This document shows positions 32,905-38,020 of a DNA stretch of 64,000 nucleotides, in pieces. The stretch's first letter is position 1; each line of letters starts with the position of its first letter. Origin of the DNA: Chitinophaga pinensis (GTDB lineage Bacteria; Bacteroidota; Bacteroidia; B-17B0; Aurantibacillaceae); contig CAMAPT010000011.1 of assembly GCA_945860225.1 (NCBI GenBank), forward strand, positions 1-64,000. The letters run 5' to 3'. A program made the position numbers and the translations under genes. The notes under the pieces were generated by a model. That model saw nothing but the letters and a program-made list of their open reading frames with translations, had not been told where the DNA came from and did not search any database.

Positions 32905-32936
32905 TTGATTTATTGTAAAATAATTTCCTATATTTG
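32905..32936 (+). promoter_or_regulatory. Promoter of the candidate structured RNA
   Basis: TTG at 32905-32907 and TATATTTG at 32929-32936 with a 21-bp spacer fit the Bacteroidota consensus. The predicted start is at about 32942, exactly where the first paired stem of the RNA begins. It lies after the tRNA-Arg terminator, and no protein gene follows it on this strand. Confidence 0.65.
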
Positions 32937-32940
32937 TGAT

Positions 32941-33030
32941 AGCTAATGAGTTTAACGCTTACAAATCTCATCCCATGATGGGTGATGCCAGTACTGGCAC
33001 GGGGGCGTTTGGATTTTTTAGCTTTTTTTA
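32941..33030 (+). ncRNA. Candidate small structured RNA next to DUF3800 gene
   Basis: About 85-90 nt. Nested pairing is visible: an outer stem AGCTAA (32941-32946) with TTAGCT (33018-33023); a middle stem AACGC (32954-32958) with GCGTT (33005-33009); inside it two hairpins, CCCA-TGA-TGGG (32972-32982, extended by CAT/ATG) and the palindrome GCCAGTACTGGC (32987-32998). The outer stem is followed at once by a run of seven T, as in an intrinsic terminator. GC content is far above the surroundings. The element ends on the stop codon of the DUF3800 gene, which is tail-to-tail. Published comparative work described several RNA motifs associated with DUF3800 genes; whether this is one of them is not shown here. 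Confidence 0.6.
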
Positions 33031-33714
33031 TTCCTCTTCATAAAGATTAATTACACTTCCGTATTTATCTTTTAAAGCATCGAAATATCTGCTTTCGCCT
33101 TTTAATAAATTACGTTGTACTGCCCACATTAAATAATCAATAATACTTAATTCAGCCATTTCACTACTTGGCACAATTTCCAAAGTGTATTTTATTTTCT
33201 GTTCAGAGTTTAAGGCTTTTTTAACAGCTTCTTCAAAACGGTGGATAGAGTTATTGCCACGTTGCGATAAATAAAGATTGTAATCTTTTGTATTGTCCGT
33301 TAATACTTCTTTTAGTAAATGATGTAATACATCAAAATAAAATTCGGTAGGATTATTATTATGTTTTCGATTGAATATATTGAGATTCTTTTTAGCAATT
33401 ACAATATTTGCTTTAAAACCCGGAAGTTCTCTCAACATTTCAAAAAACTTCGCTCTTATTTCAGGATGGTCTGCACGCGCATGAACATACCAGCCTTTTT
33501 GATTGCTAACTGAAGGAATTGTATTATACATTTTATCAGCTTTAATGTTCTCTATAAACGAAACAACGGCCTTTCTTAATGCTTTACGGTTATCTGTTTG
33601 AATTAATCCAATTATTAAATATGGCTGAAATCCTTCTGTGCCAACCAATAATTTATTTCGGTTAGCAAAGAAAAATGGGTCCCCACTTTCATCTATAAAC
33701 AAATACGACTTCAT
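33028..33714 (-). CDS. DUF3800 protein
   Basis: 228 residues, no signal peptide. Family features: N-terminal FIDESGDPFFF with acidic residues, PYLIIGLIQ strand, and C-terminal ELSIIDYLMWAVQRNLLKG followed by RYFDALKDK, the usual place of the second conserved Asp. DUF3800 is thought from its acidic motifs to have a ribonuclease-H-like fold and is often found in accessory or defence-type contexts; the activity is not known. Here it stands alone apart from the structured RNA whose 3' end meets its stop codon. Confidence 0.85.
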   Translation of the reverse strand: MKSYLFIDESGDPFFFANRNKLLVGTEGFQPYLIIGLIQTDNRKALRKAVVSFIENIKADKMYNTIPSVSNQKGWYVHARADHPEIRAKFFEMLRELPGFKANIVIAKKNLNIFNRKHNNNPTEFYFDVLHHLLKEVLTDNTKDYNLYLSQRGNNSIHRFEEAVKKALNSEQKIKYTLEIVPSSEMAELSIIDYLMWAVQRNLLKGESRYFDALKDKYGSVINLYEEE

Positions 33715-37477: not shown

Positions 37478-37711
37478 ATGACAACAAAAGTCATTCGGAC
37501 TAAAGTCCATCAATACATTGACGAGGCAGACAGTAATGTGCTAGAAGTAGTTTATAGATTACTCGAATTATATCGCCAAAGTAACTCAAGTATGTTGACA
37601 GACGAACAACAAAAAGAAGTACTTAAGAGATCCGAATTGTATAAATCAGGTAAAATAAAAGGATATTCTTTAACAGAAGTTAGAAAAAGAATAAAACAAA
37701 AACTAGCTTAA
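37478..37711 (+). CDS. Addiction-module antitoxin component
   Basis: 77 residues. N-terminal helix KVHQYIDEADSNVLEVVYRLLE and C-terminal SGKIKGYSLTEVRKRIKQKL, the tail that wraps a RelE/ParE toxin in this small-antitoxin family. The toxin frame begins 3 bp later, the usual tight arrangement. Confidence 0.75.
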   Translation: MTTKVIRTKVHQYIDEADSNVLEVVYRLLELYRQSNSSMLTDEQQKEVLKRSELYKSGKIKGYSLTEVRKRIKQKLA

Positions 37712-37714
37712 AAA

Positions 37715-38020
37715 ATGGCCTCGAATAAATAAATTATTCTTGAACAAGCTGTTATTGAACTCGAAAACGCATGTTTATACTATAACAACAAGGTTTCTGG
37801 CCTAGGATTTGAATTCGAAGAAGAAGTGGCAGCCTTACTCAAATTGATTAAGGAAAATCCGGGTATATTCCCTATAAAATTTGCACACATTCATGAAGCT
37901 GTCATAAAACGTTTTCCATTCGTTATAAATTATGAAGTTTCTGGAAATCAAATTATTGTTTCTGCCATTTTTCATGTTAAGCAAAACCCCACAACAAAAA
38001 TCAAAAGAAAACGTAAATAG
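37715..38020 (+). pseudogene. RelE/ParE-type toxin with in-frame stop at codon 6
   Basis: From the ATG at 37715 the frame reads MASNK then TAA (37730-37732) and continues as IILEQAVIELENACLYYNNK, VSGLGFEFEEEVAALLKLIK, ENPGIFPIKFAHIHEAVIKR, FPFVINYEVSGNQIIVSAIF, HVKQNPTTKIKRKRK. That is a full RelE/ParE toxin, including LKRFPF-I-Y-V and the final F-H-x-x-x-x-P motif. Only the first few residues are cut off. It may be inactivated by a nonsense mutation, initiated at the ATT after the stop, or reflect a sequence error in an AAATAAATAAATT tract. Confidence 0.75.

Follow-up and report, generated by a model that had tools for sequence, protein, structure and literature searches.

A folded RNA gene convergent with a DUF3800 gene in Bacteroidota: a candidate two-part ribonucleoprotein unit

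Introduction

DUF3800-linked RNAs have so far been motifs without a function. Weinberg and colleagues reportedly described structured RNA motifs that adjoin DUF3800 genes and probably act in trans. Two of the DUF3800 RNA motifs have been named (PMC11701678). The DUF3800 family itself has an AlphaFold-predicted RNase H fold in which the catalytic residues are rearranged (PMC10910872), and some Cas12 and VI-F loci include DUF3800 proteins as accessories (PMC10910872, PMC12669027). Pairs of a protein and a small structured RNA are also described outside this family: RCd22, a structured RNA whose gene adjoins that of an Abi_2 protein, binds AbiF directly and so neutralises it, and abiF RNA motifs are conserved with the Abi_2 protein (PMC12373285). 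Phages can carry such RNAs, as pseudo-ToxI of phage PhiTE is an RNA mimic of ToxI (PMC3475682).

Here, a compact unit of one RNA and one DUF3800 protein (<850 bp), present in scattered Bacteroidota genomes, is described from a 64-kb stretch of DNA, referred to below as the window. To our knowledge, its link to a retron effector family and the existence of a phage with the RNA only are new.

Results

Bacteroidota promoters follow the pattern TTG-n19-21-TAnnTTTG, and ahead of the RNA gene (Table 1) the two boxes, TTG at 32905 and TATATTTG at 32929-32936, are spaced by 21 nt, with the RNA start near 32941. In 15 of 19 chromosomal loci, the distance between the TAnnTTTG box and the RNA is constant to within a few bases, the background being 107 occurrences on both strands of the 64-kb window. 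At the other end of the gene, the run of seven T residues overlaps the stop codon of the convergent DUF3800 gene (33028-33030) and is kept among close relatives, while no T run follows the hairpin on the minus strand. The pairs themselves are also informative about the strand: of 538 pair cells, 105 hold a G-U pair when read on the plus strand, for which the minus strand would offer A-C, and pairing is 95% on the plus strand versus 76% on the minus. On the strength of these G-U cells, and in line with both the position of the promoter and the T run, the sequence comparison indicates that the molecule is a plus-strand RNA and not the terminator of the DUF3800 gene. The earlier note on this DNA had proposed a self-contained RNA gene with its own promoter and a T run that meets the DUF3800 stop codon, and had argued that it was not simply the terminator of that gene; all of these points were borne out.

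Table 1. Positions of the RNA gene, the DUF3800 gene and related features (window coordinates unless a locus is named).
Feature	Position	Strand	Remarks
Folded RNA gene, ~90 nt, own promoter and terminator	32935-33030	+	
Promoter, Bacteroidota-type (TTG ... TAnnTTTG)	32905-32936	+	read directly
RNA body: long stem P1 closing three-way junction	32941-33023	+	P1: 32941-32962 with 33001-33023
Hairpin P2 (CUCAUC / GAUGGG)	32967-32982	+	32967-32972/32977-32982
Hairpin P3 (UGCCA-GUAC-UGGCA)	32986-32999	+	32986-32990/32995-32999
T run, RNA end, overlaps DUF3800 stop codon	33023-33029	+	read directly
DUF3800 gene, 228 aa, convergent with RNA	33028-33714	-	PF12686 E 2.1e-5
Candidate type VII-A2 retron ncRNA	L051:2168-2262 (G277:C234)		outer stem GAGUUGCUCAA/UUGAGCAACUC, 11-bp
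Solo RNA copy	L102:4763-4835 (IMGVR_UViG_3300001202_000013)		after 33-aa ORF, before intrinsic terminator, near tRNA-Ala

It could be argued that the RNA does no more than control how DUF3800 is expressed, acting as a convergent antisense transcript, a read-through blocker or a bidirectional terminator, and the tail-to-tail layout with its overlap at the stop codon would suit such a role, as would the fact that the minus strand folds too (z -2.8). We nevertheless regard this as improbable: the minus strand would have A-C in place of the conserved G-U pairs, with the drop in pairing given above, the RNA has its own promoter, the overlap with the gene is just a few bases, conserved junction and loop bases would be unexpected of a simple terminator, and the phage copy described below has no gene to regulate.

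The folding energy of the element was -28.6 kcal/mol, and the z of -2.9 for this single sequence would be weak by itself; the comparison of loci decides. Among 17 aligned RNAs, compensatory changes were found in 16 of 32 pairs, with 36 compensatory cells observed versus 10.3 in shuffles, a covariation score of 0.309 versus 0.159 +/- 0.012 in shuffles and 95% of cells paired versus 40-53% with the partner slid, these counts being biased towards the model to which the alignment had been fitted. Covariation, named in the earlier note as a check on the element, is present on this measure; in a MAFFT alignment of ten members the score was already above all shuffles, and divergent members folded singly, free of any alignment, took the same shape. 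The signal is far above chance, and selection on the structure of the RNA is strong. Compensatory changes occurred in 12 of 21 pairs of P1 (alignment A5) and 3 of 6 pairs of P2, and P3 was the most conserved part of the RNA, with 100% of cells paired and a nearly invariant GUAn loop. P1 is irregular, with ~20 bp in the window and 11 bp in the phage copy. The four helices first described at the locus need redrawing, as the two inner hairpins stand, whereas the outer and middle helices are one irregular stem; the element is GC-rich in a relative sense only, its absolute content being 43% GC. When the RNA model was run on the 64 kb, it gave one match at 100 bits, the next scoring 11 bits.

While the helices vary with compensation, the junction and loop letters are almost constant. 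The conserved unpaired letters are A31, A33, C43, G53, the P3 GUAn loop and C69 (alignment columns), and most of the variable columns belong to the paired stem P1 or to the 5' margin. Column variability across the aligned RNAs revealed no variable guide segment, in that no free stretch varies. Such a conservation pattern would be expected of a protein-binding RNA and is the opposite of that of a guide RNA. This speaks against a guide, one of the roles suggested in the earlier note, since the unpaired positions are mostly conserved and none of the free stretches varies.

The main rival to the RNA-restrained nuclease proposed below is that the RNA is a working subunit (a scaffold, a cofactor or a guide to a fixed target) which activates DUF3800 as the ncRNA of OMEGA or CRISPR systems does. 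The strict pairing and high conservation of the RNA fit this equally well, and the accessory DUF3800 proteins of some Cas12 and VI-F loci also speak for it. Against it stand the lack of a variable unpaired segment usable as a guide and the RNA-only phage, which is harder to explain, though a dominant-negative copy is possible; on balance an activating subunit appears unlikely, while keeping an appreciable share of the probability.

The PF12686 match of the DUF3800 protein scored 25.7 bits against the curated cut-off of 21. Its best match in a defence library was PADLOC DUF3800_VII (1.3e-20), the type VII retron effector family, which distant DUF3800 members also match, and a further PADLOC match was to PDC-M04A (2.4e-9). 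A D8-E9 motif stands at the start of the protein, and D193 is invariant. An AlphaFold model built here from 8 close sequences was poor (pLDDT 48), and RNase HII and RuvC chains rank high against this low-confidence model, such structure matches being only consistent with an RNase H-like fold. A sequence search of solved structures with the DUF3800 protein returned none.

Separate searches for the RNA and for the protein across 87 family genomes returned the same 3 (p about 9e-6), and of 10 public loci located by protein search alone, 9 had the same element, 8 of them with the RNA directly at the DUF3800 stop codon on the opposite strand. Protein sweeps blind to the RNA (261, 256 and, class-wide, 395 genomes) added more loci, where the RNA was again present. 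In the 395 genomes of the class, separate runs of the RNA model and of the protein profile had one new genome in common (G277); G153 had a weak, partial DUF3800 match without an RNA match. A second site in G468 scored weakly with the RNA model (31.5 bits), and a protein search then placed a DUF3800 gene exactly there. Among the loci found by protein search, no intact DUF3800 gene of the subfamily was seen without the RNA, and relatives that lack DUF3800 also lack the RNA. DUF3800 homologues lacking the element in close relatives, which the earlier note gave as grounds for refutation alongside absent covariation, were not encountered. The earlier proposal that RNA and protein form one unit is thus upheld, and from these comparisons the pairing of RNA and DUF3800 appears real with near certainty.

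An intact RNA beside a gene broken by insertion, frameshift, stop or truncation was found at five loci (L010, L011, L087, L089 and L048), and both RNA and gene were damaged or lost at L086 and L009/L082. At L010, where the intact RNA still follows the remaining gene end, the interrupted DUF3800 gene has, in place of its middle part, ~1 kb that carries an unrelated 255-aa ORF (L010:3290-4430). This bias, by which the gene breaks first, would fit an antitoxin, although it is partly expected by chance, since the gene is ~7x larger than the RNA, and some of the breaks may be assembly errors, several of the genomes being MAGs. The RNA is also the better conserved partner, with 97% identity versus 82% for the gene in L004, and 84-87% versus 66-68% in distant loci.

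Two distant homologues (L090 and L091, with 34% and 30% identity) have RNAs of other sequence with the same fold in the same place. Models R1/R2 gave non-significant E values of 1 and 0.42 on these loci, and the sites were still the top two matches over 32 kb, while Rfam at loose thresholds gave nothing relevant for the divergent loci (no DUF3800 family to E 2-5). A second RNA class beside distant DUF3800 genes is suggested. P3 in both (L090:2265-2352, L091:1401-1478) is GAAGG-GUAU-CCUUC.

The left neighbour of the RNA gene is a tRNA-Arg with a terminator-like hairpin of its own, and the unit was at first thought to be inserted after this tRNA. Comparison within the genus showed that homology stops right after tRNA-Arg; empty-site analysis within the genus gave no defined insertion, no repeated tRNA end was found at the locus, and among the scanned loci only L004 besides the window lies close to a tRNA, so that insertion after tRNA-Arg does not hold as a general feature. 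The flanks of the unit are mostly ordinary genes and not defence islands. Two neighbouring features were recorded in passing: in the window (37478-38020), a small gene with a sub-threshold Unstab_antitox match (PF09720) followed by a small ORF, a possible toxin-antitoxin pair, and in Pedobacter sp. ok626 (L005:3839-4630), a rifampin ADP-ribosyltransferase (Arr-ms) gene adjoining the unit.

The patchy distribution and unrelated flanks, together with DNA similarity to distant relatives that breaks off at the promoter of the RNA and close to the start of the gene, might point to a small mobile element in which the RNA is an end structure for movement. No terminal repeats or target duplication were seen, however, there is generally one copy per genome, and the transcription signals and GU pairs indicate an RNA; this explanation is judged very improbable.

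Searching viral contigs for the pattern of P3 and junction gave nine matches. In one of them (IMGVR_UViG_3300001202_000013; 47.7 bits, E 7e-9), P1, P2 and the junction letters are present as well; the other eight look like chance. The phage copy folds with z -4.0, and its P1, unlike that of the other RNAs in sequence, is fully paired. The contig encodes terminase, portal, protease, capsid and a tyrosine-type integrase with Arm-DNA-bind_5, and a six-frame profile search at maximum sensitivity found no DUF3800 in all of its 38,113 bases (best E 0.28). Among phage and plasmid records, a protein search gave no match and a DNA search chance-level matches only. By analogy with known mimics, an RNA-only phage is what would be predicted if phages use decoys against a defence nuclease held in check by RNA, but there is just one such contig, and the RNA on it may be a cargo remnant.

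Discussion

The explanation that we favour, at a little above an even chance, is that the unit is a two-part ribonucleoprotein resembling a type III toxin-antitoxin or abortive infection system, in which a nuclease is restrained by its RNA and the phage copy is a decoy. The DUF3800 protein, with an RNase H-like fold, would be a toxic nuclease, and the folded RNA would bind it through the GUAn hairpin and the junction bases, leaving it inactive in the healthy cell. An infection that halts transcription or destroys the RNA would then free the nuclease and stop the infected cell, and some phages, having a copy of the RNA of their own as a decoy, would keep the nuclease silent. Among guide, substrate and antidote, the antidote fits best. 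Against this explanation weigh the mostly ordinary flanking genes, the lack of matches among phage and plasmid records, the partly chance-expected bias in gene breakage, the single phage contig and the single-copy RNA, which differs from ToxI in having no tandem repeats.

A wider proposal is less likely than not: DUF3800 proteins would form a general class of defence nucleases, restrained in their free form by a dedicated three-way-junction RNA and in retrons by the RNA-DNA hybrid made by the reverse transcriptase (RT), with solo phage decoys that imitate the fold directed against them. If the protein is toxic and silenced by the RNA, be it from host or phage, a long-orphaned class of RNAs would acquire a role in regulating defence, and phage copies on their own would make up a new group of anti-defence RNAs, for which the model offers a means of searching. 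With its compactness, its connection to retron effectors and a phage that has the RNA only, the unit leads to a concrete and cheap question, namely toxicity and its silencing by the RNA.

Of the described RNAs, the Rfam families DUF3800-I (RF02969) and DUF3800-IX (RF02968) resemble the element in being structured RNAs conserved beside DUF3800 genes. When compared through the Rfam 15 models, however, the window RNA lies below every one, with no match at gathering and no DUF3800 family even at E 10, and so it is not a member of the families against which the earlier note had suggested checking it. There is a small chance that it appears in the original motif publication despite its absence from Rfam.

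Type VII retrons (DUF3800 effector, RT and ncRNA) share with the unit an effector of the DUF3800_VII family and a DUF3800 gene immediately next to a structured RNA some 90 nt long, but in the unit the RNA has another sequence and is encoded on the opposite strand. G277 carries, on one contig and within 3 kb of each other, the unit and a DUF3800 and RT pair matching retron VII-A2; the candidate ncRNA of this retron starts at the DUF3800 stop codon, directly before the RT gene. The RT gene there is cut by the contig end, and a RES-domain-like gene precedes the candidate ncRNA. The unit might accordingly be viewed as a reduced retron, with the RNA as a shrunken msr and a DUF3800 effector that has lost its RT; DUF3800_VII is its nearest PADLOC family, and the G277 candidate ncRNA shares both its place at the stop codon and a long outer stem. 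Yet there is no RVT_1 match in the window's genome (G000, a Bacteroidota genome, 99.97% complete), so the window unit is not a retron; the strand order is opposite, the models give no match between unit RNA and retron RNA, and retrons may equally have recruited DUF3800. Descent from a retron is therefore rated a slim prospect.

Type III toxin-antitoxin systems (ToxIN) and AbiF with RCd22 likewise pair a protein with a small structured RNA gene, although the protein families of both are unrelated to DUF3800. ToxIN has a co-transcribed upstream repeat array, whereas the unit is convergent, with separate promoters, and the window has just one copy of the RNA, with no tandem repeats. The phage-borne RNA mimic known for ToxIN (PMC3475682) is the counterpart to be compared with the RNA-only phage contig, and AbiF with RCd22 is the nearest tested parallel to the proposed mechanism.
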